In this document: in pieces, positions 1-64,000 of the stretch
Layout: every line of letters begins with the position of its first letter
Numbering within the stretch: position 1 is the first letter of the stretch
NCBI GenBank assembly: GCA_029215795.1
Contig: JARDYH010000041.1
Span: 62,001-126,000, forward strand
Length of the DNA stretch: 64,000 bases
Direction of reading: 5' to 3'
Origin: Anniella stebbinsi
Taxonomy: Eukaryota > Chordata > Lepidosauria > Squamata > Anniellidae
Made by a program: the position numbers and the translations under genes
Notes under the pieces: model-generated
Told to the model about the DNA's origin: nothing
Database searches by the model: none
The model's input: only the letters and a program-made list of their open reading frames with translations

Positions 1-1871
1 ACTTGCGCGTTCTGTACAAAAACGCATCCGTCACGCCGCAAATAAACGGATGGAAGGGATCGGAGGTGAGAATCAAATCGGGACTGAGACAGGGTTGCCC
101 GTTGAGCCCTTTGTTATATATACTGGCGATAGACCCGCTGCTAGCTTCCATTCAGCGGGACGAGCGTATTCGTGGACTGCCTTTGGGATTAACGGCAGAG
201 GAGGAGAGAGAACCGGAAACGTCTGGGAGACAAAAGAAAATCACGCCTCAGGAGGTGAAGACTATAGCGCACGCCGACGACGTTTATGTCTTCCTGACAC
301 GAAAGGAAGAGACGGAAAGGGTCGTGAAGCACTTGGAAGAATACGGTAGGGCTTCGGGAGCGGCGGTGAATCAAAATAAAAGCAAAATTTATGATTTGAA
401 GATCAGAGAGAGAACGATCAAAGTCACGACATTACAAGAAGCGGAGAGTAAACGACGGGGAAGGTCGGAACGACGAGAACAGAAAGGGGAATCTGATGAA
501 TCCGATGAAGATGAAATAGAGACAGCTGCCGTTAAGATCCTGGGAGTTAGTTTTTCTTTGACGGAAGACGGCTGGGAAGAAAACTGGCTTTTATGGGAAA
601 AAAGAGTAGAGGAAAAACTTAAAAAATGGAAGGGATGGAATCTGGATGTGTATAGAAAAGTAAAATATTTCAATACCTATTGTGTAACAGCTGCTAATAA
701 TTTGGCGGTGGTATACCCGCCACCAAAAAAAGTGATAGAGAGGGTGAATACGCAACTTTTTCTATTTCTTTGGCGAATTAAGAATTATCCTCTGTCTAGG
801 ACGGTGGCATATTTGAAAGTAAGTGAGGGAGGATTGGGACTACCTGCCATCGGCCCCCTCTTTATAGCAACCTTTGTGAGTAATAATTTTCACCAGGGAG
901 GGTTTGCAGGAGATGGTAAGGGACGGGTGGCGATTCGATCCGTGTATGGAGACAAATGGAAAAATATGCAATGGGGGAAAAAATGGTGGGAGAAGGAAAT
1001 GACAAATTTTAAACTGACAGAAGCGATGAAGGTTCCTTTGCCTAAATATCTTAGGGAAGCGGTGCTTCTAATGCACCTCTGGAAAGTGCCATCTGCTTCT
1101 TTTAAAAAACAGCAAACGAGTCTAAAGGAGGTGAAAAGGACAATATATACAGATATTTTGAATAACAACTTTGTAAACGTGTGGAAAGAACGTAACATAC
1201 GTAAGGAACATATCTCGCGTTATTTAAAATCTGGCGATGTAGCTCAAAGTGTGTTTCAGGATAAAAGGATACCTTACAGTTTGTGGGACCTAAGGTGGAA
1301 AATGTACCATCAGGTCTACAGTATAGGAACAACGAATCCGTGGCGATCGGACGAGCGCCAACGGTGCCAAAGACCGGGTTGTGTAAATAAGAAGAGTACT
1401 GGGTTAGGCGGGGTTAAGGAAAAAGAAACTTTTCAGCATTTTATACAGGATTGCCCACCGGCTAAACGGGTGTGGGAAAAGGTGGCCGATCGTTTGAAGT
1501 GGCCCTTTTTGGAAAATCAAACATGGGAAAATATCTTGTCTGGAATAGAGCCGACAGGGGGGTTTCAAGGACCGGAAAAAAAGGTGGGTCCGAATAAGAA
1601 TAAGGACAGGGAAAAGAGTAGTAAGGAAAAGGGGTTTTGGAAGGTGCCGTGGACAACGGTTCGTTTGATAAATCTTTTAGTGCTGCTGATTATAGGAATC
1701 CAGCGTACAAAAGCATTAAAGAGTGGAAACGAAGAAAAGGTAGAGATCTCTGTTCAATTTGTTATTAATAGAGTAAGATCAATAGCAAGATATGAAAAGA
1801 AAAGAACTCCAAACAATAGGTGGCAAAAGTGGTGGAAGTGGTTGGAAAATTCGACAACGCCTATTACGTAA
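1..1871 (+). CDS. ORF2 protein, C-terminal half (unit A)
   Basis: Codons start at position 3; the 5' end is outside the window. The fragment holds RT motif B (GLRQGCPLSPLL), motif C (AHADDVYVFL), motif D (GAAVNQNKSKI), motif E (KILGVSF), a basic thumb/linker region, and the C-terminal C-X4-C-X18-H-X4-C cluster typical of L1/Tx1-type ORF2 proteins. The frame is open to TAA at 1869-1871. The protein would supply reverse transcription of element RNA at the target. No internal stop or frameshift is seen. Confidence 0.93.
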   Translation, partial: LRVLYKNASVTPQINGWKGSEVRIKSGLRQGCPLSPLLYILAIDPLLASIQRDERIRGLPLGLTAEEEREPETSGRQKKITPQEVKTIAHADDVYVFLTRKEETERVVKHLEEYGRASGAAVNQNKSKIYDLKIRERTIKVTTLQEAESKRRGRSERREQKGESDESDEDEIETAAVKILGVSFSLTEDGWEENWLLWEKRVEEKLKKWKGWNLDVYRKVKYFNTYCVTAANNLAVVYPPPKKVIERVNTQLFLFLWRIKNYPLSRTVAYLKVSEGGLGLPAIGPLFIATFVSNNFHQGGFAGDGKGRVAIRSVYGDKWKNMQWGKKWWEKEMTNFKLTEAMKVPLPKYLREAVLLMHLWKVPSASFKKQQTSLKEVKRTIYTDILNNNFVNVWKERNIRKEHISRYLKSGDVAQSVFQDKRIPYSLWDLRWKMYHQVYSIGTTNPWRSDERQRCQRPGCVNKKSTGLGGVKEKETFQHFIQDCPPAKRVWEKVADRLKWPFLENQTWENILSGIEPTGGFQGPEKKVGPNKNKDREKSSKEKGFWKVPWTTVRLINLLVLLIIGIQRTKALKSGNEEKVEISVQFVINRVRSIARYEKKRTPNNRWQKWWKWLENSTTPIT

Positions 1872-2122
1872 TACACTAATGTACTGTTGATGGAGGGAGT
1901 GAGGTGAAATAAGGTAATATGAAAAGGCTGTTAATTGTATTTTGTAACTTTTATGGCGTCATGTAGAAGTATGTATACTATTTTTTGAAATAATTTGAAT
2001 CTTGTGTATAATTTTTGAATACTTTACTTCTGTTTTATCTGTTTTATCTGTACAGTAGTATGTTTTTTTAAAATAAAAAATTTATTCCTAAAAAAAAAAA
2101 AAAAAAAAAAATTTATTCCTAA
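1872..2122 (+). other. 3' UTR, poly(A) and telomere junction (unit A)
   Basis: The AT-rich 3' UTR spans 218 nt (1872-2089). It contains a doubled TTTTATCTG and an AATAAA polyadenylation signal at 2072-2077. TTTATTCCT (2081-2089) is followed by 22 A (2090-2111), then by a second TTTATTCCT plus AA (2112-2122) that merges into the CCCTAA tract. The AATAAA lies 12 nt upstream of the A run, as expected for a retrotransposed Pol II transcript. Confidence 0.9.
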
Positions 2123-2474
2123 CCCTAACCCTAACCCTAACCCTAACCCTAACCCTAACCCTAACCCTAACCCTAACCCTAACCCTAACCCTAACCCTAA
2201 CCCTAACCCTAACCCTAACCCTAACCCTAACCCTAACCCTAACCCTAACCCTAACCCTAACCCTAACCCTAACCCTAACCCTAACCCTAACCCTAACCCT
2301 AACCCTAACCCTAACCCTAACCCTAACCCTAACCCTAACCCTAACCCTAACCCTAACCCTAACCCTAACCCTTAACCCTTAACCCTTAACCCTTAACCTT
2401 AACCTTAACCTTAACCTTAACCTTAACCTTAACCTTAACCTTAACCTTAACCTTAACCTTAACCTTAACCTTAA
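2123..2474 (+). repeat. Telomeric tract J1, (CCCTAA)41
   Basis: Counted directly: 41 CCCTAA (2123-2368), 4 CCCTTAA (2369-2396) and 13 CCTTAA (2397-2474). The G-rich TTAGGG strand is the - strand, so its 3' end points to lower coordinates. If this is a chromosome end, the terminus lies to the left. The order pure, CCCTTAA, CCTTAA is the order seen in the other tracts. Confidence 0.97.
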
Positions 2475-2660
2475 CCTCAACCACTGAGGTGGAAGGAGGT
2501 GTTTCACAACAGCTCCTGCTTTGGGAAACGCATAACGAGCTCTACGTTGGACAAAACGAATGGTACCCCAAAAACTGTGAAACTGCAGTGTGGGGGAAGT
2601 GTTGGGGAACTAGGAGATGCCTTTTTGGGGTCTCTACCCCAAAAATTCAAGGAGAAAACG
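2475..2660 (+). promoter_or_regulatory. 5' leader with uORFs and hairpin (unit B)
   Basis: The leader is 186 nt. A short palindrome CCAC-TGAG-GTGG (2481-2492) sits at the element's left border. A six-codon uORF spans 2560-2580. A 66-codon uORF (2617-2817) overlaps the ORF1 start in another frame. TTTTTGGGGT (2622-2631) and ACCCCAAAAA (2636-2645) form a perfect 10-bp stem with a CTCT loop, 15 nt before the ORF1 ATG. A second ACCCCAAAAA at 2565-2574 could compete for the same left arm. No TATA box or initiator can be assigned with confidence. Confidence 0.7.
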
Positions 2661-5600
2661 ATGTCGGAAGCTGACCTCCCAGGCACGGCTCTGCAGAAGG
2701 AAGAGGACAAAGTGGCTGACACCGGAAAAGAACACAGTGAGTCTTTCATTGAAAACCCTGAAACTGGAAAAGATCGCCTTAGTAAAACAGAGGGTGAAGA
2801 AAGGGTACCCCATCTAGTAGAAGACTTGAAAAGAAAGGATTTGAAGGAAAAGGGTATGCTAACTGGGAGGGAAATACAGAAGGAAGGGCCCTTGCGAGAG
2901 CTCTCAGTCCCCTCTTGTGAGAAGGAGTTTTTTTCCATTGAAAATACAAAGGAACAACCTGAAGACCTTTTGTTAAGGGAGCGAAAGGAAGAAGGAGGGG
3001 GGGTGAGAGTTGGAAGCCCCCAAACCCGAGGAGGAGATGTTAAAACCCTACCCGCGGGCTCTCTTCCCGAATGGGGAGAGGATCTAATCCGGTCCCAGGC
3101 CTCGTGGACTCTTCCAGATGAGCCAGGCCCGGAGCAAACTCATTATGACTCAGCGTTTGTTTGCAGAGAGCCACAGGAAGTGCCTCTTAGCCGGCAGAAA
3201 GTAGAAATGAGCTGGCAGGAAATGGGGTCGCTGGAAAGGGGGAGGGACAGATCGCCCATTAAGCCTGGAGAGGCTTTTCAAAGGTCCCCTGAAATTGACT
3301 GGCAGGGAAGACGTCCAATGGGAGCTGAAATCTGTACAGAACCTGCAAAATACAGTTTAATGCAGCAAAGGAGCAGGGACACTGACTTTTTGGAAGTAAA
3401 AGCATACAGACCGGGATTTCTGAGTGCTGATTCTGGCACTTATTTGTCTGTTTCTGATTCTGAAGTAGTTTCTTTTCAAAGAAGAAACACTGACAGTGGG
3501 GAAGGAAAAAAGGACTTTGATTGTAGTCCAGATATGTTTGAGTCTGTGCAGCAACAGACCCCCTTTTTGCAGAATACACCCATTGGATCTGGGATGGAAC
3601 AGGCAGACATCGTTATGAATATGACAGACGAAAAAGATGACAGTAAACAGGGAGAAAATAGAAAGGAACGTCTGAGAGATAAATGGGCCAACTCTTCCAA
3701 CTCGAGAGAGAAAAGAATTTTAATGCAGTGGGAAACGCAAATGTGCCTTCCTATGGAAGATGTGCATAAATTTCTTTTGTACCCTCCCTTTGATGAAAAT
3801 GACCTGGTCAAATTATGGGGATTTATAGTGGTACGCGTGGCTTTGAGTGGGCCGGCTCAGGAAAAGAAGCTCAATAAACTGGGACACGAGAAACTTTTTC
3901 GCTTGTTGGAAAGCGCGCGTGAACCTATTTTGGAACTGTTGAAAGGCAATGAGGTTGCCGACCGAGAGGATGCCGTGACGGCCGTGAAGTTGACGGAGAA
4001 TATTGTCGAACGGATGTTGATCATGCGTAAGCCGCGGACCTCTCGGGAAAGTTTTCCCAAATGGCTAGAAGAAAGGGAATTTATCAGAATGCTACAAGAA
4101 GTTTTGAGAGAATGGGAGAAACCCGAGAGGCGAAGCACGCTAGCTCAGCCTATCCTATGTAGAGACACGAATGATAAAAATCTCGTGATGACGAGAGAGG
4201 ACTATATGGAGTGGTTGGCTTTAATAATTTCTTATTTACGGCAGAGGGGGACGTTAAAGAAAAGATATGGGAGAGACTCTTTTCTAGATTTGCAAACGCG
4301 GAGCCGAGGGACGGATGTCACGGAAGAGCGAGGAGCTTCGCTGACGACTGGAGGAAGAACGCCTGTAATGGGAGACCCGGAGGTGGAGCCGGATGGCGAT
4401 ACGGAGGAGGAGAGTCGGGCCTTTTTCATTGAACAGGGGACTTCTGCGCTTGCAGGGTCCCCGCAAATCGGTGAGGACCTAACTTTCGGTCTTAGCTCGG
4501 GGGAGAAGTCTTTACCTAAAGGCAAGAGATCTAGGAAAGAGGGGAGTGAAAACCCCTCGCCGGCGGCCGATAGGGGGAAAAAGGCTAGGACGGGAGGCGT
4601 AGAGTTGGATCCGAACGAAGTAGAATCTGAGACTCGATTTCACAGGGTGTCGGAAACGGAGACGGAGACGGGGGAGGAGTCGGGAGAGGAGTCGGATATG
4701 GAGTCGGAGCTCTTGTCTGATGTAGAAATAGAATGCGGACAACGAGCGGAGGAAGGGAAAGGGGAAATCCGGGAATCTTCTGTAACAGTAGGGACTAAAG
4801 CACAGGAGGGGAGGAAAAAAGGAGACGGGACGGAAGGGGTTAGAGGCGGAAGGAGTTCGGGATCGGGCAGTCCTTTAGCCGAACTGATTAGGTGGAGTTC
4901 GGACCCGGATTTATTAGAATTGGAGGAGGTGGTACGGTTAGAAGAGAGGGTAGACGTTCCCCGAGATAATGGGGGGGTCGGAGAGGGGAAACGGAAGTCG
5001 GGCCCGGATGCTGCTGGTGTTTCTGCTTTCTCCCCTGCCGAGGATTCGATCTGTGCGGATGGAGGAGAAAGCGGGACGGGACTTTCGTCGGAGTCGAAGG
5101 CGCCTTTGGCGGACGTGGACTGTGATGAACGTGCGCTCGGAGATTCGCTCAGGGGGCGAAAGGAACGGCATTTTCAACAAGGAGCGCGGCCGAAGGAAAG
5201 AGGGACTTTGGGACATTCGCTTCCACCTGTACGAAGTGTTTATAAAATTGGTCTTGTGAGTAATGGCGTTCCGCCGCCGCCGACGTCGCCTTCTCGTGAG
5301 GTTTCTCCGAGTACTGTAGCGGCCTCGGAGAAACCCAGAGAATCGATCGTCGGAGATGATACGACACGGGGAGAGGTTACGGAGGGGGAATCGACAATAA
5401 ATACAGAAGCGCGGGAAGGGCCCCCTTCGCAAGGGAAGCAGAGGGTGAGATCCTATGCTGCGGCTGCGGCGGGGGAGTCCGATGCTGGGGGGTCGGGGAA
5501 TAGAATGGGAGGGGAAAGGCCAAATATGAGAGGATACAGAGATTTAGAGTTGGATATGTTTGAAGATCAAGAACTCTTAGACCGATATTATTCGGGAATC

Positions 5601-7454
5601 CCGGACGACTACGATGCTCGCCAGAGATATGTAGTACGTCTGCGGTATAGAGGACAGGACCCGCAGAAAATATCGAGGAACTATATTGAAAATGAGATAC
5701 TTTTTCGATTTTTGAAATATCCTAAGGAGGACATTTTGGCGGTTATCATCCCGCTAGGGATGAGGGAGATAGATATTTGCTTGAGAACGGAACGGGCGTA
5801 CCAAAAGTTTTGGGATTTGTGTCGATTGGCGGTGAAAAACAGAGCCTCGATTTTTAAGGATTACGATGTGGTCCCTCTTTTTCGAGGAGAGACTAAAGTT
5901 TTGACCGTGAGCTTCCGAACGACGAGTATACCTAAAGAGGACATCGCTACGTGGCTTGGCCGTCATTGCCGAGTCATGATGGAACCGGAAAAGAAACTAT
6001 CCGAGGCGGGAATTTGGACGGGAGAGTTTAGAGCGATAGTGGCCTTGGACAGGACGGCCTACGGCGGACCAAGGCACTTGCCGAAGTATTTCTTTTTGGG
6101 AGCGGACAGGGGAATGACCCGATATAGCGGTCAGCCCTCGGCGTGCTTCCAATGCGGAGGTTACGATCACCATCGCCGCAATTGTACCACTCCGCTCTGT
6201 TCCAAGTGTGGAACTAAAGGACATAGCACGATGCATTGTGACAGAGAGGTGACTTGTAGCTTGTGTAGACAAATCGGGCACCCGTACATGTGGTGCCCGG
6301 CCTCCAAGTATAATATGGACGATGACGAGAGATTTAGGGAAGCTTCGAGGAGAGCGACCGAAGGGAAAAGACGACAGGAAGAAAAGGAAAAAAAGGAACG
6401 AGCGGAAAGGGACGGGAAGCAAAAAGAAAGAGAAAACGAGGCGGCGAAGGACAAAAGAACGTCATACGCTCGAGTTCGGGACATTTTAGGAAAGGCGAGA
6501 GGAGGAAACGGAAGCTCTGCGGGAAGCTCGACACAAAGCCACGGGTCTGAGAAGGAACGAGAGGATGAGTTGTACAGGCAAAGTCGGGAAATGGAAGAAC
6601 GGGAACGTGTCGAAGCGTGGAAAACAGTTTCTAGTCACAGAAAAGGTAAAGAAAAGGATGCGGGGAAATCATCTTCCGAGAGACCTCAAACTCAGAACCG
6701 GTTTTCAGTGTTACAAGAAGAAGAAGTCATGGAGATAGGGGAACAGGAAGAAGAGAGGGAAAGAACATGTGTCGTCCCTGGGTTAGGAAAAGAACCCCAA
6801 AACGATCAATCTCCCAAGGAGCAGAGAGACCTTCGAGAAAACAAGAGGGCGAAAAAGCAAGGGGCGGATACGCGTCGGCAGCTGTCGAGGAGAAGCGTGG
6901 CGGATCTGAAGGAGGAATATGACATGCTGGAGGTAGAAGTCGGGATGGCGAGAAGAGAGATACCTTCTTTGTTAGCGGATGAAACGGAAAAGGGAACCGA
7001 CGAGCGCTCCAAAAGAATAGATAAACTCAGCAAAAGAAAAGAAGAATGGGAGTGGCGATTAGAGAAATTACGACGCACGATGGAGGAAAAAACTGAATTA
7101 CGGGGGTTAGAAGGAAAAAAGAAACAAACGGAAGAAGAAGAGATGGAAATAGAGCCCGACGAAACAGAAGAGCGAGATGTACGAAAGGAGATTTTAGAAG
7201 AAAACAATCCCGAATCTGGAAAGGACGCGGGAGAGGAGATGACGTCGAAAGCCGGAGGGCGACGTCTAGATCAAACTACGGTCTCGGTGGAAGAGGAACA
7301 AAAGGTAGAGGGAAGTTCTTGTCCTGAAAACCCTCACCCGGGAGGAACCGGACAGGAACCGGATATAATTAGTAGGACTACACCTCCAAATCTATCGGAG
7401 GGGGTAGACTCATTGACAATTTCTGGAGATAGTTCAGGAACGGGAATAAGCTAA
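2661..7454 (+). CDS. ORF1 protein, CCHC zinc-knuckle RNA-binding (unit B)
   Basis: Predicted nucleic-acid-binding, RNP-forming protein of 1597 aa. I start at the first in-frame ATG (2661), which has A at -3; the frame is open further upstream but without ATG. Residues 1-350 are polar and look disordered; about 350-535 is a predicted mostly helical, more ordered region; about 540-950 is acidic and low complexity, with E/S/T runs near 663-695 and five alanines near 935. About 956-1160 resembles the ZCCHC3/Tx1-type ORF1 region (probably RRM-like folds). Three CX2CX4HX4C knuckles follow: C1162-C1175, C1180-C1193 and C1199-C1212. The tail is charged, with probable coiled coil at about 1408-1485. 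This is long for an ORF1 protein, and the N-terminal half is unrecognised. Residue 1435 is Pro here. It precedes ORF2 by a 109-nt spacer in another frame. Confidence 0.88.
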   Translation: MSEADLPGTALQKEEDKVADTGKEHSESFIENPETGKDRLSKTEGEERVPHLVEDLKRKDLKEKGMLTGREIQKEGPLRELSVPSCEKEFFSIENTKEQPEDLLLRERKEEGGGVRVGSPQTRGGDVKTLPAGSLPEWGEDLIRSQASWTLPDEPGPEQTHYDSAFVCREPQEVPLSRQKVEMSWQEMGSLERGRDRSPIKPGEAFQRSPEIDWQGRRPMGAEICTEPAKYSLMQQRSRDTDFLEVKAYRPGFLSADSGTYLSVSDSEVVSFQRRNTDSGEGKKDFDCSPDMFESVQQQTPFLQNTPIGSGMEQADIVMNMTDEKDDSKQGENRKERLRDKWANSSNSREKRILMQWETQMCLPMEDVHKFLLYPPFDENDLVKLWGFIVVRVALSGPAQEKKLNKLGHEKLFRLLESAREPILELLKGNEVADREDAVTAVKLTENIVERMLIMRKPRTSRESFPKWLEEREFIRMLQEVLREWEKPERRSTLAQPILCRDTNDKNLVMTREDYMEWLALIISYLRQRGTLKKRYGRDSFLDLQTRSRGTDVTEERGASLTTGGRTPVMGDPEVEPDGDTEEESRAFFIEQGTSALAGSPQIGEDLTFGLSSGEKSLPKGKRSRKEGSENPSPAADRGKKARTGGVELDPNEVESETRFHRVSETETETGEESGEESDMESELLSDVEIECGQRAEEGKGEIRESSVTVGTKAQEGRKKGDGTEGVRGGRSSGSGSPLAELIRWSSDPDLLELEEVVRLEERVDVPRDNGGVGEGKRKSGPDAAGVSAFSPAEDSICADGGESGTGLSSESKAPLADVDCDERALGDSLRGRKERHFQQGARPKERGTLGHSLPPVRSVYKIGLVSNGVPPPPTSPSREVSPSTVAASEKPRESIVGDDTTRGEVTEGESTINTEAREGPPSQGKQRVRSYAAAAAGESDAGGSGNRMGGERPNMRGYRDLELDMFEDQELLDRYYSGIPDDYDARQRYVVRLRYRGQDPQKISRNYIENEILFRFLKYPKEDILAVIIPLGMREIDICLRTERAYQKFWDLCRLAVKNRASIFKDYDVVPLFRGETKVLTVSFRTTSIPKEDIATWLGRHCRVMMEPEKKLSEAGIWTGEFRAIVALDRTAYGGPRHLPKYFFLGADRGMTRYSGQPSACFQCGGYDHHRRNCTTPLCSKCGTKGHSTMHCDREVTCSLCRQIGHPYMWCPASKYNMDDDERFREASRRATEGKRRQEEKEKKERAERDGKQKERENEAAKDKRTSYARVRDILGKARGGNGSSAGSSTQSHGSEKEREDELYRQSREMEERERVEAWKTVSSHRKGKEKDAGKSSSERPQTQNRFSVLQEEEVMEIGEQEEERERTCVVPGLGKEPQNDQSPKEQRDLRENKRAKKQGADTRRQLSRRSVADLKEEYDMLEVEVGMARREIPSLLADETEKGTDERSKRIDKLSKRKEEWEWRLEKLRRTMEEKTELRGLEGKKKQTEEEEMEIEPDETEERDVRKEILEENNPESGKDAGEEMTSKAGGRRLDQTTVSVEEEQKVEGSSCPENPHPGGTGQEPDIISRTTPPNLSEGVDSLTISGDSSGTGIS

Positions 7455-7563
7455 AGAGATATAGATATAATTTAGAGGTTTTTTAGAGTTTAAGGGATGT
7501 TATTAAATTCATAAGTTTGTATCATATAATACAGGTTTAAGTAAGTACGGTCCTACGACGTAA

Positions 7564-10500
7564 ATCAAAATTTATCATACAAAACAATTCAATACAAATA
7601 CAAATTTTTCCATAGCCACTTGGAATTGCAGAGGTTTAAGACAACGGGAAAGGAGAGAAGAAATATTATCGGCTCTTTCGAAGTTAGGCCCCGATATTAT
7701 TATTTTGCAGGAAATTAATTTTGATTCGGAAAAGGAAAGAAGTCTAGCTCAAAAATTTTGGTCGTGGGGACCGTCAGTCTGGTCATATAACGAAACGGGA
7801 AGAGGAGGAGTAGGAGCGATAATAAAATGGAAACGGGGAATGAAAATCAAGAGGACCGTAGAAGCCGATCCCGGACATTTGGTCGTCGTAGATTTCAGTC
7901 TCCGGGAAAGGCGGGAGGAAGGTAGCGAGGAAGAAATCCATTTTAGATTGTGCGCCCTTTATGCGCCGACTACGCTTCAACGTAGGAAGAAATTATGGCA
8001 GACTTTGAAGGATCACGTTCAAACGAATAGGTCTTTAATCATCGTGGGAGATTTTAACAATAGAACAAGCTTGAGCGACCACGTTAATTTAGCGAACGGT
8101 GATCTCGGAGGTAAGAAGAAAGAATTACCTCTGACGCCCGAAGAGAGGGAACTGCAAAACTTATTAAAGAGAGACTTGCGGTTGCAAGATAAGGCGACGC
8201 TTATAGATAATCAATTAGAGTATTTCCCTATTTGGAGCAGGAAAGTTTATATGGAAAGGTTTCAGCAGTTAGATGGGGTAAAGTTTACTTTTTATCATCC
8301 CAGATTTGTAAGTAGGATAGATAGAATTTGGGGGAAAGAAGATCTAAAGGTGAACCGGGTTCAAGTTCTCTTAACTCCGTGGTCTGACCATGGGATTTTA
8401 ATGATGGACTTTTACACCGGTGAGGTTTTGATTAAAGGAAGACCGGGTTGGAGACTCGCTCCTAGGTTGTTGCAGGATACCGATTGCAAGGAAGAATTAG
8501 AAAAGGTCATGGATTATTCCGAAAGGTTGAGATCGTACGAAGGAACGGGCCCGATCGTGTGGTGGGAGGAGTTAAAAAGAACGGTTAAGAGGACCTGTAT
8601 TTCTTTGGCGAAAAAAGAGTACAAAATAGATCTCAGAAATTATCAACGGGCCTTGTATTCTTACCTGAAAATTCACTATAAAATAAACAAAGGGCTACCG
8701 TGGGATAAAAAGGAATTAGACAGATCGGCGGAAGCGATAAGGCAATATCAACAGCAACAACATTGGTTGAGAGTGGAAAAACAAAAAAATAGATCTACCG
8801 GTCCTATAATAGACAAAGGAGAGTGGGAAGCGGACAAAAAGACAAACAGCAGGGAAAGCTTTAAAGGATTAAGGAACAACGCGGGAGAGAGGATCAAAAC
8901 AAAACCTCGAGAGATGATGGACATTATGGAAGACTATTACACAAAGGTTTATAGAAAGCAAGTTATTTCAAAAGAAGATATGTTACATTTTCTTAAAAAA
9001 ACTAACAAGGACGATCTGAAAGGACTTACGGAGGAGGAAAAACAAGCCATGATCGCTCCGATAGAGAAAGAGGAAATTTTGAAAGTGATAGCGCAAGGCA
9101 AAACCAAATCGTCACCGGGCCCGGACGGGTTGACGTATTCCTTTTACAAAACTTTTAAAGAGGAAGTAGCCGAACCGTTAGCTCGAGCCTTTAATGCTGC
9201 TTTAAAAAATCAATGTCTGGGTGAGACTTTTTATCGAGGAACTTTGATTTTTTTGCCGAAAGGAGGAGATTTAACCCTTCCTGAAAATTGGCGCCCGATT
9301 ACCCTCACTGATGTAGACTATAGGATTTTAGCGAAAGTTCTCAACAACAGGCTATCTAAAGTGGTTTCAAAATTGGTAGTGGGCTTGCAAACGAGCGCCG
9401 TCCCCGGTAGACGAATGTCAGACTCTTTATGTTTGGTCAGAGAATTTTTTCACTTTCGGAGTTTGAAACCTCAAAATCGAGGTTTGCTTCAATTAGACCA
9501 GTCGAAAGCTTTCGACAGGGTCGATCAAGATTATCTATGGGAAGTTTTAACGCTGAAGGGAGTTCCGCTGGTATTTATAGAACACTTGCGCGTTCTGTAC
9601 AAAAACGCATCCGTCACGCCGCAAATAAACGGATGGAAGGGATCGGAGGTGAGAATCAAATCGGGACTGAGACAGGGTTGCCCGTTGAGCCCTTTGTTAT
9701 ATATACTGGCGATAGACCCGCTGCTAGCTTCCATTCAGCGGGACGAGCGTATTCGTGGACTGCCTTTGGGATTAACGGCAGAGGAGGAGAGAGAACCGGA
9801 AACGTCTGGGAGACAAAAGAAAATCACGCCTCAGGAGGTGAAGACTATAGCGCACGCCGACGACGTTTATGTCTTCCTGACACGAAAGGAAGAGACGGAA
9901 AGGGTCGTGAAGCACTTGGAAGAATACGGTAGGGCTTCGGGAGCGGCGGTGAATCAAAATAAAAGCAAAATTTATGATTTGAAGATCAGAGAGAGAACGA
10001 TCAAAGTCACGACATTACAAGAAGCGGAGAGTAAACGACGGGGAAGGTCGGAACGACGAGAACAGAAAGGGGAATCTGATGAATCCGATGAAGATGAAAT
10101 AGAGACAGCTGCCGTTAAGATCCTGGGAGTTAGTTTTTCTTTGACGGAAGACGGCTGGGAAGAAAACTGGCTTTTATGGGAAAAAAGAGTAGAGGAAAAA
10201 CTTAAAAAATGGAAGGGATGGAATCTGGATGTGTATAGAAAAGTAAAATATTTCAATACCTATTGTGTAACAGCTGCTAATAATTTGGCGGTGGTATACC
10301 CGCCACCAAAAAAAGTGATAGAGAGGGTGAATACGCAACTTTTTCTATTTCTTTGGCGAATTAAGAATTATCCTCTGTCTAGGACGGTGGCATATTTGAA
10401 AGTAAGTGAGGGAGGATTGGGACTACCTGCCATCGGCCCCCTCTTTATAGCAACCTTTGTGAGTAATAATTTTCACCAGGGAGGGTTTGCAGGAGATGGT

Positions 10501-11454
10501 AAGGGACGGGTGGCGATTCGATCCGTGTATGGAGACAAATGGAAAAATATGCAATGGGGGAAAAAATGGTGGGAGAAGGAAATGACAAATTTTAAACTGA
10601 CAGAAGCGATGAAGGTTCCTTTGCCTAAATATCTTAGGGAAGCGGTGCTTCTAATGCACCTCTGGAAAGTGCCATCTGCTTCTTTTAAAAAACAGCAAAC
10701 GAGTCTAAAGGAGGTGAAAAGGACAATATATACAGATATTTTGAATAACAACTTTGTAAACGTGTGGAAAGAACGTAACATACGTAAGGAACATATCTCG
10801 CGTTATTTAAAATCTGGCGATGTAGCTCAAAGTGTGTTTCAGGATAAAAGGATACCTTACAGTTTGTGGGACCTAAGGTGGAAAATGTACCATCAGGTCT
10901 ACAGTATAGGAACAACGAATCCGTGGCGATCGGACGAGCGCCAACGGTGCCAAAGACCGGGTTGTGTAAATAAGAAGAGTACTGGGTTAGGCGGGGTTAA
11001 GGAAAAAGAAACTTTTCAGCATTTTATACAGGATTGCCCACCGGCTAAACGGGTGTGGGAAAAGGTGGCCGATCGTTTGAAGTGGCCCTTTTTGGAAAAT
11101 CAAACATGGGAAAATATCTTGTCTGGAATAGAGCCGACAGGGGGGTTTCAAGGACCGGAAAAAAAGGTGGGTCCGAATAAGAATAAGGACAGGGAAAAGA
11201 GTAGTAAGGAAAAGGGGTTTTGGAAGGTGCCGTGGACAACGGTTCGTTTGATAAATCTTTTAGTGCTGCTGATTATAGGAATCCAGCGTACAAAAGCATT
11301 AAAGAGTGGAAACGAAGAAAAGGTAGAGATCTCTGTTCAATTTGTTATTAATAGAGTAAGATCAATAGCAAGATATGAAAAGAAAAGAACTCCAAACAAT
11401 AGGTGGCAAAAGTGGTGGAAGTGGTTGGAAAATTCGACAACGCCTATTACGTAA
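7564..11454 (+). CDS. ORF2 protein: APE endonuclease-reverse transcriptase (unit B)
   Basis: The frame opens after TAA (7561-7563) and runs 1296 codons. There is no in-frame ATG before the endonuclease domain; the first one is about 90 codons in, past essential residues, so the true start is uncertain and probably non-AUG. Numbered from 7564: endonuclease motifs TWNCRGL (19-25), LQE (E50), ALYAP, GDFN (D163, N165), SRIDRI (D253) and SDH (D275, H276) give a complete APE-type active site. RT motifs: SSPGPDG near 516, LDQSKAFDRVD (D645), RQGCPLSPLL, AHADD (D766, D767) and KILGVSF. The last domain has C1129-X4-C1134-X18-H1153-X4-C1158. The protein should nick DNA and prime reverse transcription of element RNA. 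HADD replaces the usual F/Y-ADD. No RNase H domain is seen. Confidence 0.9.
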   Translation: MKIYHTKQFNTNTNFSIATWNCRGLRQRERREEILSALSKLGPDIIILQEINFDSEKERSLAQKFWSWGPSVWSYNETGRGGVGAIIKWKRGMKIKRTVEADPGHLVVVDFSLRERREEGSEEEIHFRLCALYAPTTLQRRKKLWQTLKDHVQTNRSLIIVGDFNNRTSLSDHVNLANGDLGGKKKELPLTPEERELQNLLKRDLRLQDKATLIDNQLEYFPIWSRKVYMERFQQLDGVKFTFYHPRFVSRIDRIWGKEDLKVNRVQVLLTPWSDHGILMMDFYTGEVLIKGRPGWRLAPRLLQDTDCKEELEKVMDYSERLRSYEGTGPIVWWEELKRTVKRTCISLAKKEYKIDLRNYQRALYSYLKIHYKINKGLPWDKKELDRSAEAIRQYQQQQHWLRVEKQKNRSTGPIIDKGEWEADKKTNSRESFKGLRNNAGERIKTKPREMMDIMEDYYTKVYRKQVISKEDMLHFLKKTNKDDLKGLTEEEKQAMIAPIEKEEILKVIAQGKTKSSPGPDGLTYSFYKTFKEEVAEPLARAFNAALKNQCLGETFYRGTLIFLPKGGDLTLPENWRPITLTDVDYRILAKVLNNRLSKVVSKLVVGLQTSAVPGRRMSDSLCLVREFFHFRSLKPQNRGLLQLDQSKAFDRVDQDYLWEVLTLKGVPLVFIEHLRVLYKNASVTPQINGWKGSEVRIKSGLRQGCPLSPLLYILAIDPLLASIQRDERIRGLPLGLTAEEEREPETSGRQKKITPQEVKTIAHADDVYVFLTRKEETERVVKHLEEYGRASGAAVNQNKSKIYDLKIRERTIKVTTLQEAESKRRGRSERREQKGESDESDEDEIETAAVKILGVSFSLTEDGWEENWLLWEKRVEEKLKKWKGWNLDVYRKVKYFNTYCVTAANNLAVVYPPPKKVIERVNTQLFLFLWRIKNYPLSRTVAYLKVSEGGLGLPAIGPLFIATFVSNNFHQGGFAGDGKGRVAIRSVYGDKWKNMQWGKKWWEKEMTNFKLTEAMKVPLPKYLREAVLLMHLWKVPSASFKKQQTSLKEVKRTIYTDILNNNFVNVWKERNIRKEHISRYLKSGDVAQSVFQDKRIPYSLWDLRWKMYHQVYSIGTTNPWRSDERQRCQRPGCVNKKSTGLGGVKEKETFQHFIQDCPPAKRVWEKVADRLKWPFLENQTWENILSGIEPTGGFQGPEKKVGPNKNKDREKSSKEKGFWKVPWTTVRLINLLVLLIIGIQRTKALKSGNEEKVEISVQFVINRVRSIARYEKKRTPNNRWQKWWKWLENSTTPIT

Positions 11455-16863: not shown

Positions 16864-16972
16864 AGAGATATAGATATAATTTAGAGGTTTTTTAGAGTTT
16901 AAGGGATGTTATTAAATTCATAAGTTTGTATCATATAATACAGGTTTAAGTAAGTACGGTCCTACGACGTAA

Positions 16973-55248: not shown

Positions 55249-55357
55249 AGAGATATAGATATAATTTAGAGGTTTTTTAGAGTTTAAGGGATGTTATTAA
55301 ATTCATAAGTTTGTATCATATAATACAGGTTTAAGTAAGTACGGTCCTACGACGTAA

Positions 55358-58300
55358 ATCAAAATTTATCATACAAAACAATTCAATACAAATACAAATT
55401 TTTCCATAGCCACTTGGAATTGCAGAGGTTTAAGACAACGGGAAAGGAGAGAAGAAATATTATCGGCTCTTTCGAAGTTAGGCCCCGATATTATTATTTT
55501 GCAGGAAATTAATTTTGATTCGGAAAAGGAAAGAAGTCTAGCTCAAAAATTTTGGTCGTGGGGACCGTCAGTCTGGTCATATAACGAAACGGGAAGAGGA
55601 GGAGTAGGAGCGATAATAAAATGGAAACGGGGAATGAAAATCAAGAGGACCGTAGAAGCCGATCCCGGACATTTGGTCGTCGTAGATTTCAGTCTCCGGG
55701 AAAGGCGGGAGGAAGGTAGCGAGGAAGAAATCCATTTTAGATTGTGCGCCCTTTATGCGCCGACTACGCTTCAACGTAGGAAGAAATTATGGCAGACTTT
55801 GAAGGATCACGTTCAAACGAATAGGTCTTTAATCATCGTGGGAGATTTTAACAATAGAACAAGCTTGAGCGACCACGTTAATTTAGCGAACGGTGATCTC
55901 GGAGGTAAGAAGAAAGAATTACCTCTGACGCCCGAAGAGAGGGAACTGCAAAACTTATTAAAGAGAGACTTGCGGTTGCAAGATAAGGCGACGCTTATAG
56001 ATAATCAATTAGAGTATTTCCCTATTTGGAGCAGGAAAGTTTATATGGAAAGGTTTCAGCAGTTAGATGGGGTAAAGTTTACTTTTTATCATCCCAGATT
56101 TGTAAGTAGGATAGATAGAATTTGGGGGAAAGAAGATCTAAAGGTGAACCGGGTTCAAGTTCTCTTAACTCCGTGGTCTGACCATGGGATTTTAATGATG
56201 GACTTTTACACCGGTGAGGTTTTGATTAAAGGAAGACCGGGTTGGAGACTCGCTCCTAGGTTGTTGCAGGATACCGATTGCAAGGAAGAATTAGAAAAGG
56301 TCATGGATTATTCCGAAAGGTTGAGATCGTACGAAGGAACGGGCCCGATCGTGTGGTGGGAGGAGTTAAAAAGAACGGTTAAGAGGACCTGTATTTCTTT
56401 GGCGAAAAAAGAGTACAAAATAGATCTCAGAAATTATCAACGGGCCTTGTATTCTTACCTGAAAATTCACTATAAAATAAACAAAGGGCTACCGTGGGAT
56501 AAAAAGGAATTAGACAGATCGGCGGAAGCGATAAGGCAATATCAACAGCAACAACATTGGTTGAGAGTGGAAAAACAAAAAAATAGATCTACCGGTCCTA
56601 TAATAGACAAAGGAGAGTGGGAAGCGGACAAAAAGACAAACAGCAGGGAAAGCTTTAAAGGATTAAGGAACAACGCGGGAGAGAGGATCAAAACAAAACC
56701 TCGAGAGATGATGGACATTATGGAAGACTATTACACAAAGGTTTATAGAAAGCAAGTTATTTCAAAAGAAGATATGTTACATTTTCTTAAAAAAACTAAC
56801 AAGGACGATCTGAAAGGACTTACGGAGGAGGAAAAACAAGCCATGATCGCTCCGATAGAGAAAGAGGAAATTTTGAAAGTGATAGCGCAAGGCAAAACCA
56901 AATCGTCACCGGGCCCGGACGGGTTGACGTATTCCTTTTACAAAACTTTTAAAGAGGAAGTAGCCGAACCGTTAGCTCGAGCCTTTAATGCTGCTTTAAA
57001 AAATCAATGTCTGGGTGAGACTTTTTATCGAGGAACTTTGATTTTTTTGCCGAAAGGAGGAGATTTAACCCTTCCTGAAAATTGGCGCCCGATTACCCTC
57101 ACTGATGTAGACTATAGGATTTTAGCGAAAGTTCTCAACAACAGGCTATCTAAAGTGGTTTCAAAATTGGTAGTGGGCTTGCAAACGAGCGCCGTCCCCG
57201 GTAGACGAATGTCAGACTCTTTATGTTTGGTCAGAGAATTTTTTCACTTTCGGAGTTTGAAACCTCAAAATCGAGGTTTGCTTCAATTAGACCAGTCGAA
57301 AGCTTTCGACAGGGTCGATCAAGATTATCTATGGGAAGTTTTAACGCTGAAGGGAGTTCCGCTGGTATTTATAGAACACTTGCGCGTTCTGTACAAAAAC
57401 GCATCCGTCACGCCGCAAATAAACGGATGGAAGGGATCGGAGGTGAGAATCAAATCGGGACTGAGACAGGGTTGCCCGTTGAGCCCTTTGTTATATATAC
57501 TGGCGATAGACCCGCTGCTAGCTTCCATTCAGCGGGACGAGCGTATTCGTGGACTGCCTTTGGGATTAACGGCAGAGGAGGAGAGAGAACCGGAAACGTC
57601 TGGGAGACAAAAGAAAATCACGCCTCAGGAGGTGAAGACTATAGCGCACGCCGACGACGTTTATGTCTTCCTGACACGAAAGGAAGAGACGGAAAGGGTC
57701 GTGAAGCACTTGGAAGAATACGGTAGGGCTTCGGGAGCGGCGGTGAATCAAAATAAAAGCAAAATTTATGATTTGAAGATCAGAGAGAGAACGATCAAAG
57801 TCACGACATTACAAGAAGCGGAGAGTAAACGACGGGGAAGGTCGGAACGACGAGAACAGAAAGGGGAATCTGATGAATCCGATGAAGATGAAATAGAGAC
57901 AGCTGCCGTTAAGATCCTGGGAGTTAGTTTTTCTTTGACGGAAGACGGCTGGGAAGAAAACTGGCTTTTATGGGAAAAAAGAGTAGAGGAAAAACTTAAA
58001 AAATGGAAGGGATGGAATCTGGATGTGTATAGAAAAGTAAAATATTTCAATACCTATTGTGTAACAGCTGCTAATAATTTGGCGGTGGTATACCCGCCAC
58101 CAAAAAAAGTGATAGAGAGGGTGAATACGCAACTTTTTCTATTTCTTTGGCGAATTAAGAATTATCCTCTGTCTAGGACGGTGGCATATTTGAAAGTAAG
58201 TGAGGGAGGATTGGGACTACCTGCCATCGGCCCCCTCTTTATAGCAACCTTTGTGAGTAATAATTTTCACCAGGGAGGGTTTGCAGGAGATGGTAAGGGA

Positions 58301-59248
58301 CGGGTGGCGATTCGATCCGTGTATGGAGACAAATGGAAAAATATGCAATGGGGGAAAAAATGGTGGGAGAAGGAAATGACAAATTTTAAACTGACAGAAG
58401 CGATGAAGGTTCCTTTGCCTAAATATCTTAGGGAAGCGGTGCTTCTAATGCACCTCTGGAAAGTGCCATCTGCTTCTTTTAAAAAACAGCAAACGAGTCT
58501 AAAGGAGGTGAAAAGGACAATATATACAGATATTTTGAATAACAACTTTGTAAACGTGTGGAAAGAACGTAACATACGTAAGGAACATATCTCGCGTTAT
58601 TTAAAATCTGGCGATGTAGCTCAAAGTGTGTTTCAGGATAAAAGGATACCTTACAGTTTGTGGGACCTAAGGTGGAAAATGTACCATCAGGTCTACAGTA
58701 TAGGAACAACGAATCCGTGGCGATCGGACGAGCGCCAACGGTGCCAAAGACCGGGTTGTGTAAATAAGAAGAGTACTGGGTTAGGCGGGGTTAAGGAAAA
58801 AGAAACTTTTCAGCATTTTATACAGGATTGCCCACCGGCTAAACGGGTGTGGGAAAAGGTGGCCGATCGTTTGAAGTGGCCCTTTTTGGAAAATCAAACA
58901 TGGGAAAATATCTTGTCTGGAATAGAGCCGACAGGGGGGTTTCAAGGACCGGAAAAAAAGGTGGGTCCGAATAAGAATAAGGACAGGGAAAAGAGTAGTA
59001 AGGAAAAGGGGTTTTGGAAGGTGCCGTGGACAACGGTTCGTTTGATAAATCTTTTAGTGCTGCTGATTATAGGAATCCAGCGTACAAAAGCATTAAAGAG
59101 TGGAAACGAAGAAAAGGTAGAGATCTCTGTTCAATTTGTTATTAATAGAGTAAGATCAATAGCAAGATATGAAAAGAAAAGAACTCCAAACAATAGGTGG
59201 CAAAAGTGGTGGAAGTGGTTGGAAAATTCGACAACGCCTATTACGTAA
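55358..59248 (+). CDS. ORF2 endonuclease-reverse transcriptase (unit G)
   Basis: 1296 open codons, identical in translation to unit B from TTG 55499 onward. Complete endonuclease, RT and C-terminal cysteine cluster; no ATG before the endonuclease motifs. Confidence 0.9.
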   Translation: MKIYHTKQFNTNTNFSIATWNCRGLRQRERREEILSALSKLGPDIIILQEINFDSEKERSLAQKFWSWGPSVWSYNETGRGGVGAIIKWKRGMKIKRTVEADPGHLVVVDFSLRERREEGSEEEIHFRLCALYAPTTLQRRKKLWQTLKDHVQTNRSLIIVGDFNNRTSLSDHVNLANGDLGGKKKELPLTPEERELQNLLKRDLRLQDKATLIDNQLEYFPIWSRKVYMERFQQLDGVKFTFYHPRFVSRIDRIWGKEDLKVNRVQVLLTPWSDHGILMMDFYTGEVLIKGRPGWRLAPRLLQDTDCKEELEKVMDYSERLRSYEGTGPIVWWEELKRTVKRTCISLAKKEYKIDLRNYQRALYSYLKIHYKINKGLPWDKKELDRSAEAIRQYQQQQHWLRVEKQKNRSTGPIIDKGEWEADKKTNSRESFKGLRNNAGERIKTKPREMMDIMEDYYTKVYRKQVISKEDMLHFLKKTNKDDLKGLTEEEKQAMIAPIEKEEILKVIAQGKTKSSPGPDGLTYSFYKTFKEEVAEPLARAFNAALKNQCLGETFYRGTLIFLPKGGDLTLPENWRPITLTDVDYRILAKVLNNRLSKVVSKLVVGLQTSAVPGRRMSDSLCLVREFFHFRSLKPQNRGLLQLDQSKAFDRVDQDYLWEVLTLKGVPLVFIEHLRVLYKNASVTPQINGWKGSEVRIKSGLRQGCPLSPLLYILAIDPLLASIQRDERIRGLPLGLTAEEEREPETSGRQKKITPQEVKTIAHADDVYVFLTRKEETERVVKHLEEYGRASGAAVNQNKSKIYDLKIRERTIKVTTLQEAESKRRGRSERREQKGESDESDEDEIETAAVKILGVSFSLTEDGWEENWLLWEKRVEEKLKKWKGWNLDVYRKVKYFNTYCVTAANNLAVVYPPPKKVIERVNTQLFLFLWRIKNYPLSRTVAYLKVSEGGLGLPAIGPLFIATFVSNNFHQGGFAGDGKGRVAIRSVYGDKWKNMQWGKKWWEKEMTNFKLTEAMKVPLPKYLREAVLLMHLWKVPSASFKKQQTSLKEVKRTIYTDILNNNFVNVWKERNIRKEHISRYLKSGDVAQSVFQDKRIPYSLWDLRWKMYHQVYSIGTTNPWRSDERQRCQRPGCVNKKSTGLGGVKEKETFQHFIQDCPPAKRVWEKVADRLKWPFLENQTWENILSGIEPTGGFQGPEKKVGPNKNKDREKSSKEKGFWKVPWTTVRLINLLVLLIIGIQRTKALKSGNEEKVEISVQFVINRVRSIARYEKKRTPNNRWQKWWKWLENSTTPIT

Positions 59249-59492
59249 TACACTAATGTACTGTTGATGGAGGGAGTGAGGTGAAATAAGGTAATATGAA
59301 AAGGCTGTTAATTGTATTTTGTAACTTTTATGGCGTCATGTAGAAGTATGTATACTATTTTTTGAAATAATTTGAATCTTGTGTATAATTTTTGAATACT
59401 TTACTTCTGTTTTATCTGTTTTATCTGTACAGTAGTATGTTTTTTTAAAATAAAAAATTTATTCCTAAAAAAAAAAAAAAATTTATTCCTAA
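59249..59492 (+). other. 3' UTR, short poly(A), telomere junction (unit G)
   Basis: 218-nt UTR, 15 A at 59467-59481, then TTTATTCCTAA at 59482-59492. Confidence 0.9.
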
Positions 59493-59862
59493 CCCTAACC
59501 CTAACCCTAACCCTAACCCTAACCCTAACCCTAACCCTAACCCTAACCCTAACCCTAACCCTAACCCTAACCCTAACCCTAACCCTAACCCTAACCCTAA
59601 CCCTAACCCTAACCCTAACCTAACCCTAACCCTAACCCTAACCCTAACCCTAACCCTAACCCTAACCCTAACCCTAACCCTAACCCTAACCCTAACCCTA
59701 ACCCTAACCCTAACCCTAACCCTAACCCTAACCCTAACCCTAACCCTAACCCTTAACCCTTAACCCTTAAACCTTAACCCTTAACCTTAACCTTAACCTT
59801 AACCTTAACCTTAACCTTAACCTTAACCTTAACCTTAACCTTAACCTTAACCTTAACCTTAA
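59493..59862 (+). repeat. Telomeric tract J7 with CCTAA and ACCTTAA variants
   Basis: 21 CCCTAA, one CCTAA (59619-59623), 21 CCCTAA (59624-59749). The next block is three CCCTTAA, one ACCTTAA (59771-59777) and one CCCTTAA, followed by 13 CCTTAA (59785-59862). It has the CCTAA variant of J3/J5, but at a different offset, and the five-repeat middle block of J4/J6. Confidence 0.97.
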
Positions 59863-63000: not shown

Positions 63001-64000
63001 GATGCTCGCCAGAGATATGTAGTACGTCTGCGGTATAGAGGACAGGACCCGCAGAAAATATCGAGGAACTATATTGAAAATGAGATACTTTTTCGATTTT
63101 TGAAATATCCTAAGGAGGACATTTTGGCGGTTATCATCCCGCTAGGGATGAGGGAGATAGATATTTGCTTGAGAACGGAACGGGCGTACCAAAAGTTTTG
63201 GGATTTGTGTCGATTGGCGGTGAAAAACAGAGCCTCGATTTTTAAGGATTACGATGTGGTCCCTCTTTTTCGAGGAGAGACTAAAGTTTTGACCGTGAGC
63301 TTCCGAACGACGAGTATACCTAAAGAGGACATCGCTACGTGGCTTGGCCGTCATTGCCGAGTCATGATGGAACCGGAAAAGAAACTATCCGAGGCGGGAA
63401 TTTGGACGGGAGAGTTTAGAGCGATAGTGGCCTTGGACAGGACGGCCTACGGCGGACCAAGGCACTTGCCGAAGTATTTCTTTTTGGGAGCGGACAGGGG
63501 AATGACCCGATATAGCGGTCAGCCCTCGGCGTGCTTCCAATGCGGAGGTTACGATCACCATCGCCGCAATTGTACCACTCCGCTCTGTTCCAAGTGTGGA
63601 ACTAAAGGACATAGCACGATGCATTGTGACAGAGAGGTGACTTGTAGCTTGTGTAGACAAATCGGGCACCCGTACATGTGGTGCCCGGCCTCCAAGTATA
63701 ATATGGACGATGACGAGAGATTTAGGGAAGCTTCGAGGAGAGCGACCGAAGGGAAAAGACGACAGGAAGAAAAGGAAAAAAAGGAACGAGCGGAAAGGGA
63801 CGGGAAGCAAAAAGAAAGAGAAAACGAGGCGGCGAAGGACAAAAGAACGTCATACGCTCGAGTTCGGGACATTTTAGGAAAGGCGAGAGGAGGAAACGGA
63901 AGCTCTGCGGGAAGCTCGACACAAAGCCACGGGTCTGAGAAGGAACGAGAGGATGAGTTGTACAGGCAAAGTCGGGAAATGGAAGAACGGGAACGTGTCG
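60049..64000 (+). CDS. ORF1 protein, N-terminal part (unit H)
   Basis: Open from ATG 60049 to the window end, about 1317 codons. It includes the N-terminal low-complexity half, the ZCCHC3-like region and all three zinc knuckles (about 63532-63684). The coiled-coil tail and stop are cut off by the window edge. No stop interrupts the visible part, unlike unit D. Confidence 0.87.
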   Translation, partial: MSEADLPGTALQKEEDKVADTGKEHSESFIENPETGKDRLSKTEGEERVPHLVEDLKRKDLKEKGMLTGREIQKEGPLRELSVPSCEKEFFSIENTKEQPEDLLLRERKEEGGGVRVGSPQTRGGDVKTLPAGSLPEWGEDLIRSQASWTLPDEPGPEQTHYDSAFVCREPQEVPLSRQKVEMSWQEMGSLERGRDRSPIKPGEAFQRSPEIDWQGRRPMGAEICTEPAKYSLMQQRSRDTDFLEVKAYRPGFLSADSGTYLSVSDSEVVSFQRRNTDSGEGKKDFDCSPDMFESVQQQTPFLQNTPIGSGMEQADIVMNMTDEKDDSKQGENRKERLRDKWANSSNSREKRILMQWETQMCLPMEDVHKFLLYPPFDENDLVKLWGFIVVRVALSGPAQEKKLNKLGHEKLFRLLESAREPILELLKGNEVADREDAVTAVKLTENIVERMLIMRKPRTSRESFPKWLEEREFIRMLQEVLREWEKPERRSTLAQPILCRDTNDKNLVMTREDYMEWLALIISYLRQRGTLKKRYGRDSFLDLQTRSRGTDVTEERGASLTTGGRTPVMGDPEVEPDGDTEEESRAFFIEQGTSALAGSPQIGEDLTFGLSSGEKSLPKGKRSRKEGSENPSPAADRGKKARTGGVELDPNEVESETRFHRVSETETETGEESGEESDMESELLSDVEIECGQRAEEGKGEIRESSVTVGTKAQEGRKKGDGTEGVRGGRSSGSGSPLAELIRWSSDPDLLELEEVVRLEERVDVPRDNGGVGEGKRKSGPDAAGVSAFSPAEDSICADGGESGTGLSSESKAPLADVDCDERALGDSLRGRKERHFQQGARPKERGTLGHSLPPVRSVYKIGLVSNGVPPPPTSPSREVSPSTVAASEKPRESIVGDDTTRGEVTEGESTINTEAREGPPSQGKQRVRSYAAAAAGESDAGGSGNRMGGERPNMRGYRDLELDMFEDQELLDRYYSGIPDDYDARQRYVVRLRYRGQDPQKISRNYIENEILFRFLKYPKEDILAVIIPLGMREIDICLRTERAYQKFWDLCRLAVKNRASIFKDYDVVPLFRGETKVLTVSFRTTSIPKEDIATWLGRHCRVMMEPEKKLSEAGIWTGEFRAIVALDRTAYGGPRHLPKYFFLGADRGMTRYSGQPSACFQCGGYDHHRRNCTTPLCSKCGTKGHSTMHCDREVTCSLCRQIGHPYMWCPASKYNMDDDERFREASRRATEGKRRQEEKEKKERAERDGKQKERENEAAKDKRTSYARVRDILGKARGGNGSSAGSSTQSHGSEKEREDELYRQSREMEERERV

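Follow-up and report, generated by a model that had tools for sequence, protein, structure and literature searches.

The 64,000-nucleotide stretch of Anniella stebbinsi DNA analyzed here, hereafter the window, corresponds to bases 62001-126000 of contig C41 (148,570 bp), within a genome assembly of 1.89 Gb in 91 contigs. A single non-LTR retrotransposon, which we named element A, was found head-to-tail across the whole window with all its copies on the plus strand, and it probably is an active or recently active long interspersed nuclear element (LINE) of the Tx1/L1 type that inserts into the telomere repeat as such. The A unit was about 9.2 kb long, and six complete copies, plus one cut at either window edge, alternated with seven CCCTAA tracts in one orientation. 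The tracts started at positions 2123, 11698, 21115, 30733, 40341, 49910, and 59493, with 41, 24, 41, 44, 38, 41, and 42 unit matches, respectively (range 24-44), and the 5' ends of A were located at 2475, 11884, 21472, 31110, 40680, 50269, and 59863. These positions bear out the initial annotation of this DNA, which had described eight copies, six of them complete, and seven tracts in the same orientation. Since the seven tracts gave Tandem Repeats Finder scores of 337-632 and each unit carried about 9.2 kb of near-identical sequence, chance repeats were ruled out.

The spacers were composite and read, from left to right, X-A(14-22)-X, (CCCTAA)n, (CCCTTAA)0-4, (CCTTAA)7-14, and then the next A 5' end, CCTCAACCACTGAGG, where X is TTTATTCC. 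Apart from the length of the A-run, which varied from 14 to 22, the window copies differed by two single-nucleotide polymorphisms (SNPs), one 30-bp duplication in copy 3, and one 1-bp deletion in copy 5; both open reading frames (ORFs) were open in four of the six complete copies (1, 2, 4, and 6). The features are as follows, the spacers being given without strand:

1-2122, plus strand: copy 0 of A, represented by its 3' part with a terminal X-A(n)-X
2123-2474: spacer 1, (CCCTAA)41 followed by CCCTTAA and CCTTAA variants
2475-11697, plus strand: copy 1 of A, complete, both ORFs open
11698-11883: spacer 2, short type, (CCCTAA)24 (CCTTAA)7
11884-21114, plus strand: copy 2 of A, complete, both ORFs open
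21115-21471: spacer 3
21472-30732, plus strand: copy 3 of A, complete; ORF1 stop from the 30-bp tandem duplication (22196-22255), ORF2 open
30733-31109: spacer 4
31110-40340, plus strand: copy 4 of A, complete, both ORFs open
40341-40679: spacer 5, carrying a CCTAA variant where spacer 3 has it too
40680-49909, plus strand: copy 5 of A, complete; ORF2 frameshift through the 1-bp deletion
49910-50268: spacer 6
50269-59492, plus strand: copy 6 of A, complete, both ORFs open
59493-59862: spacer 7, with the rare CCCTTAAACCTTAA variant common to the first spacer of C41
59863-64000, plus strand: copy 7 of A, truncated to its 5' part at the edge of the window

Contig C41 started and stopped within A copies, and 15 element starts were found along it; all 15 preceding spacers could be read, and 13 were of the long type and two of the short type.

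Next, the proteins encoded by copy 1 were analyzed, and the following features were assigned:

2661-7454, plus strand: ORF1, 1597 amino acids (aa) from the first in-frame ATG, with the first and second RBD_ZCCHC3 domains and a weak zinc knuckle
3705-4229, plus strand: N-terminal ORF1 domain common to A and to the second family, B (see below), residues 411-585 of the stop-to-stop frame, with no Pfam match
7564-11454, plus strand: ORF2, 1296 aa from stop to stop, with an APE endonuclease and a reverse transcriptase (RT) bearing an HADD motif

The two RBD_ZCCHC3 domains of ORF1 were recognized with E-values of 2.6e-13 (first) and 1.1e-20 (second), and the CCHC knuckle stayed below the cut-off (E 0.094). 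This is the ORF1 layout of the fish type, and the fish protein P0014 is annotated with both ZCCHC3 domains. In ORF2, the matches were to Exo_endo_phos (4.5e-19) and RVT_1 (5e-33), and the best solved structural relative was LINE-1 ORF2p (3.1e-57). Judged by its encoded domains, A is thus a two-ORF LINE of the Tx1/L1 type, and the ZCCHC3-type domains, the APE endonuclease, and the RT uphold the Tx1/L1-like ORF1-ORF2 structure proposed initially. The comparison of ORF1 of copy 1 with that of a 98.6% identical copy from scaffold C7 gave a ratio of replacement to silent substitution rates (dN/dS) of 0.32, with 27 silent and 30 replacement changes and no stops in 1429 codons. Of the 36 scored genome matches to ORF2, 29 had full length and no interruption; three carried stops (1, 1, and 25), and four were partial.

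To place these copies in the genome, a DNA probe search, with the best 40 of 52 candidates scored, and an ORF2 protein search, with the best 36 of 17,742 first-look candidates scored, were used, and both genome counts are therefore lower bounds. The DNA probe gave ten matches near the starts of C2, C3, C4, C5, C6, C8, and C9 and one internal match at C7:4.53 Mb, so that 10 of 11 matches on large scaffolds were terminal; the other 29 of the 40 were on the small contigs C41, C57, C61, C65, C84, and C85. In the ORF2 search, eight of ten large-scaffold matches were near the ends of C2, C3, C4, C5, C8, and C10, two were internal (C7:4.51 Mb and C2:242.41 Mb), and 26 of 36 were on small contigs. When both families were considered, A or B was present at 15 of the 20 ends of the ten largest scaffolds (C1-C10), i.e., at the starts of C2, C3, C4, C5, C6, C8, C9, and C10, and at the ends of C1, C2, C3, C6, C8, C9, and C10. 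The polarity was the same in all 15 cases, with the 5' end outward, the plus strand at scaffold starts, and the minus strand at scaffold ends. The remaining five ends were the C1 start, which was ribosomal DNA (rDNA)-like, both C7 ends, which were satellite-like, and the C4 and C5 ends; only 1.2 kb was read at each, and hence their lack of A or B is not proven. A majority of copies outside telomeric repeats, the finding that the initial annotation had set against telomere targeting, was not encountered among the best-scoring copies.

The junctions were then tallied with the element end as the sole criterion, over the fetched loci except L001-L008. Telomere-type repeats preceded the A 5' ends in 30 of 30 cases and the B 5' ends in five of five. 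Similarly, telomere repeats were found within 75 bases past the 3' ends of A (25/25), of B (8/8), and of A', a further element (1/1), and they also followed the 3' end of both internal A copies (2/2). All the readable element-end junctions were therefore telomeric, in agreement with the targeting to TTAGGG repeats claimed initially, and a generic L1 landing anywhere was discarded. A is a telomere-repeat-specific LINE with TRAS-like polarity. Each family ended in X-A(n)-X before the telomere, X being TTTATTCC in A, TTATTTTCC in A', and TCTCTCATCC in B. Fourteen junctions led to the 5' end of another family, and in 12 of them the second X was the element's own X, once with an extra TC; a TA-rich variant took its place in the other two, which look allelic.

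The second family, B, was GC-rich and diverged, with an ORF2 about 35% identical to that of A. A-to-B and B-to-A neighbors shared one orientation and were separated by telomere repeats, and a third, A-like relative, C, was joined to CCCTAA and apparently 5'-truncated (two probably allelic junctions, judged by eye). On contig C85, the order was B, CCCTAA repeats, CCCTACC/CCTTCA/CCTTAA variants, and then A, the CCCTAA repeats being seen near 10.5-10.7, 15.0-15.4, and 20.0-24.2 kb. Runs of CCCTACC, (CCTTCA)n, and (CCTTAA)n were observed between telomere and A 5' end at L014:4219-4973, where variant repeats were expanded beside the element. The ORF1 proteins of A and B shared a domain of about 180 aa (A 3705-4229; B L019:1532-2068), with 25% identity and an E-value of 1e-16. 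No protein match at E <= 10, no Pfam match, and no database relative of this domain was found, and its AlphaFold model was helical and poorly predicted (mean pLDDT 53.8). We regard it as a candidate for telomere docking.

As for how the arrays grew, a SNP and a spacer variant were common to the non-adjacent copies 3 and 5, another SNP was common to the non-adjacent copies 2 and 6, and short-type spacers recurred on C61 and C57, the latter resembling an alternative haplotype of the C8 start, with common junctions. The near-constant spacers, together with rare variants common to non-adjacent units, suggest that most units were copied as DNA along with their spacers, while the mixed-family junctions elsewhere required separate insertions.

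Telomerase and simple terminal repeats were also found in this genome. Two matches to TERT RNA-binding-domain exons, with no stops, were located at C6:15.117-15.118 Mb, and none of 14 control genomes was matched. Eighteen of the 20 scaffold termini were readable, and three of these finished in long TTAGGG/CCCTAA runs: at the C3 start, the repeat was pure over 1-3000; at the C10 start, it was near-pure over 1-1200 and pure at 10.0-10.5 kb; and at the C8 end, a B 5' end ran into TTAGGG near 101.470 Mb, the last 1.2 kb being nearly pure TTAGGG. The C7 end carried a few TTAGGG units, and the remaining readable termini finished in element or other sequence. With TERT exons present and long terminal repeats at 3 of 18 termini, the situation of HeT-A, with no telomerase and no simple terminal repeat, does not apply here.

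Of the two internal loci, that at C2:242.41 Mb contained a decayed A with 79% protein identity and 25 stops, which kept X, a decayed A-run, X, and then about 70 bases of decaying CCCTAA-like repeats. Upstream of it, on the opposite strand, lay an A'-like element whose ORF2 was 42% and 35% identical to that of A in two pieces, and whose 3' end adjoined at least 0.7 kb of degenerate TTAGGG. This head-to-head pair, flanked by degenerate telomere tracts that face inward, spanned C2:242.4009-242.4127 Mb (L113, L110, L114, and L111), which was read on both sides of a stretch inside the decayed A. The pair is likely the scar of a chromosome fusion, with an inversion as the alternative, because the order TTAGGG, A' on the minus strand, A on the plus strand, and CCCTAA would be expected from two ends joined within arrays. 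The C7 and C2 copies both broke at element base 4473/4474. One nested insertion common to both was discarded, since the C7 insert is a different LINE, 23-26% identical to A ORF2.

An RT tree was built with 42 sequences, which were only the homologues from the protein search plus B. A and B grouped, with support of 100/100, with proteins from Anolis, Varanus, and Lerista, with P0004 and P0005, and with a Nuttalliella protein. The ORF2 relatives in Anolis, Varanus, and Lerista point to a squamate genome. The closest Anolis carolinensis protein found, P0006, belonged to this clade and was 42% identical over 70% of A ORF2. The RT motif was HADD in the seven of these eight clade members where it was readable (A, B, and P0003-P0007), and mostly YADD or FADD outside the clade, with HADD also in P0015 and P0025; a profile search with A1 returned no further close clade member. 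The clade member P0003, 37% identical to A, was recorded from the tick Nuttalliella namaqua, which feeds on lizards, and may be carried-over host DNA or a real tick element.

The literature, consulted in excerpts for the sources cited here, already holds an element of this kind. Tx1-1_ACar of the green anole is named as inserted in telomeric repeats (PMC10088271, PMC5537684), and this "telomere-specific Tx1" is credited to Kojima and Jurka 2013, Repbase Rep. 13:843 (PMC10088271), so that the idea of an undescribed kind, raised where the initial annotation could name no matching telomere-repeat family, is not supported. Both are Tx1/L1-like elements in lizard telomeric repeats; the excerpts describing Tx1-1_ACar differ in giving no genome-wide layout, second family, or 3' junction. 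A is probably a separate family, since the closest Anolis protein found is 42% identical, Tx1-1_ACar itself being known here from descriptions. The excerpts of PMC4700185 and PMC12857005 do not mention Tx1-1_ACar, and no other recognizable account of a telomere-specific LINE in a squamate appeared among the literature matches listed, mostly open papers represented by titles and abstract openings.

Further afield, TRAS1 and SART1 of Bombyx mori, of the R1 clade, are likewise LINEs inside telomerase-type repeats. The poly(A) of A meets the C-strand repeat, the opposite of SART1 and therefore probably as in TRAS1, and telomere-like bases in the 3' untranslated region (UTR) can prime SART1 complementary DNA (cDNA) synthesis (PMC7265360, excerpts). 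In contrast, their target is TTAGG, the closest solved relative of A is L1 and not an R1 element, and no X-A(n)-X junction is described for them in the excerpts of PMC7265360. HeT-A, TART, and TAHRE of Drosophila resemble A and B in that several families are mixed at chromosome ends (PMC5537684, PMC10088271, excerpts), but they replace telomerase, whereas TERT exons and TTAGGG persist in the A/B genome. The fungal FoTeR and MoTeR are telomeric LINEs, too, and their 5' ends point to the terminus; their endonuclease is restriction-like, as opposed to the APE of A (FoTeR: PMC12857005, excerpts). Zepp1 of Chlorella and GilM and GilT of Giardia are also telomere-located LINEs, in different hosts, and the latter two are assigned to the CRE clade (PMC10088271, excerpts). 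According to the same source, virtually all surveyed telomeric elements carry G-quadruplex motifs, unlike A, in which none of the G3+N1-7 type was found on either strand, and a G-quadruplex bias was hence discarded as the cause of telomere residence.

For the nick position, the slippage, the recombination route, and the current activity of A, which we infer from the sequence, the following cycle can be proposed. The ORF1 and ORF2 proteins would bring the A RNA to the chromosome end, where the APE endonuclease would nick the G-rich (TTAGGG)n strand, or a free G-strand end would serve, giving a primer that ends in TTAGG. This primer may pair with the CCUAA closing A's own 3' UTR. The first cDNA would copy the last few bases (X) and slip back via its T-run onto the poly(A) tail, and the restarted cDNA would copy the tail, X, and the element, leaving X-A(n)-X beside the telomere. 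The A 5' end would then be joined to telomere repeats on the distal side, and recombination between chromosome ends would copy element-plus-spacer units, generating the uniform array of the window. A TTAGG primer, T-run slippage, and restart are the most likely origin of X-A(n)-X, and this junction may be a readable trace of the start of cDNA synthesis. In SART1, a short or absent tail allows cDNA to begin inside the 3' UTR at telomere-like bases (PMC7265360, excerpts).

Several observations weigh against this reading of A. ORF2 of A lacks an in-frame ATG upstream of residue 93, which is past the first endonuclease motifs (7564-7840), and its translation may therefore start unusually. The remaining ORF1 dN/dS values, based on few or no changes, were scattered between 0.21 and 1.91 where defined, and two of these low-change comparison copies had one ORF1 stop each. 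The junctions are not independent, probably including allelic contigs; 12 of 28 fetched junction stretches read N at the junction and were left unscored, and a tandem repeat does not allow a nick site or a target-site duplication to be recognized. As only the best-scoring candidates were scored, older internal copies may escape, and most scored copies were on small unplaced contigs (29/40 and 26/36). The C9 start copy broke at element base 2843 into non-telomeric DNA, and the internal C7 copy was interrupted by another LINE, its 3' end still showing X-A(n)-X and telomere repeats. Finally, the near-constant C41 spacers (13/15 of the long type) show that most window units were copied as DNA.

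Among the alternatives, it is unlikely that A and B act as telomere-maintaining symbionts, whose insertions materially lengthen and maintain the ends alongside telomerase. Their presence at most large-scaffold ends (15/20), the 148.6 kb of the array contig alone, and several scaffolds ending inside an element would fit this proposal; these scaffolds may simply be incomplete, however, and with TERT exons and three termini in long TTAGGG/CCCTAA runs, the elements need not maintain the ends. Just as doubtful, or slightly more so, is a passive satellite, in which a single old insertion, or very few, multiplied among chromosome ends solely through recombination, rolling circle, or break-induced replication, with no retrotransposition now. 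The eight window copies differing by only two SNPs and two indels, the variants common to non-adjacent units (copies 3 and 5; spacer 7 and the first C41 spacer), the recurrence of long or short spacer types on C41, C61, and C57, and some ORF1 dN/dS values near 1, from few changes, all suit such a satellite. It accounts poorly for the variable neighbors (A to A, A to B, B to A, and A to C), for an X that matches each family's own 3' end, for the seemingly 5'-truncated C joined to telomere, and for the open ORFs with an ORF1 dN/dS of 0.32 against the C7 copy.

An attachment of the HeT-A type is improbable. Here, the RNA would start in the upstream neighbor's 3' end, carry the spacer as a 5' tag, and be added onto a bare end. 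HeT-A, TART, and TAHRE have their 3' ends toward the centromere, as do A and B, the spacers are near-constant, and the second X could be taken for a tag left by the upstream neighbor. Such a tag would follow the donor's neighbor and not the element's own family, whereas the second X matched the preceding element in 12 of 14 mixed junctions and was the TA-rich variant in two; tags of this type were therefore discarded, and the TERT exons and long terminal repeats at three of 18 readable termini also argue against this route. That repeats were collapsed or falsely joined during assembly is very improbable since, even if C41 is small, apparently unplaced, and nearly uniform, and C57 resembles another haplotype of the C8 start, the same junction structure was found on many scaffolds and in the decayed copy deep inside C2.

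Other sequences were observed by eye near these loci. A 28S rDNA-like sequence lay beside the internal A copy of C7 (L012, about 9690-10000) and at the C1 start (L051), where it broke at what we take to be the R2 insertion site. A satellite-like repeat of the GGGGAAGTCTA type was seen on contigs C12 and C88 as well as at the C7 start, and the C7 end had a longer one just before the few TTAGGG units (L055, L059, L073, and L065 set).

As far as our searches show, families A and B, the X-A(n)-X 3' junction, whole-unit copying, mixed arrays, the common ORF1 domain, and the C2 fossil pair are new, within a kind of element already known. A broader proposal, still tentative and rather unlikely as a whole, is that these are hybrid ends, in which telomerase repeats co-evolve with at least two telomere-only LINE families, the ORF1 domain docks at telomeres, arrays lengthen the ends, and broken arrays fuse chromosomes, leaving head-to-head pairs as at C2:242.40 Mb. 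The usual picture of a vertebrate telomere is one of TTAGGG alone. In this TERT-bearing genome, LINEs belonging to two families occupy 15 of 20 large-scaffold ends, and ORF2 is intact in many of them. This lizard would thus offer a vertebrate system for the direct study of retrotransposon telomere targeting, hybrid chromosome ends, and element-marked fusions.

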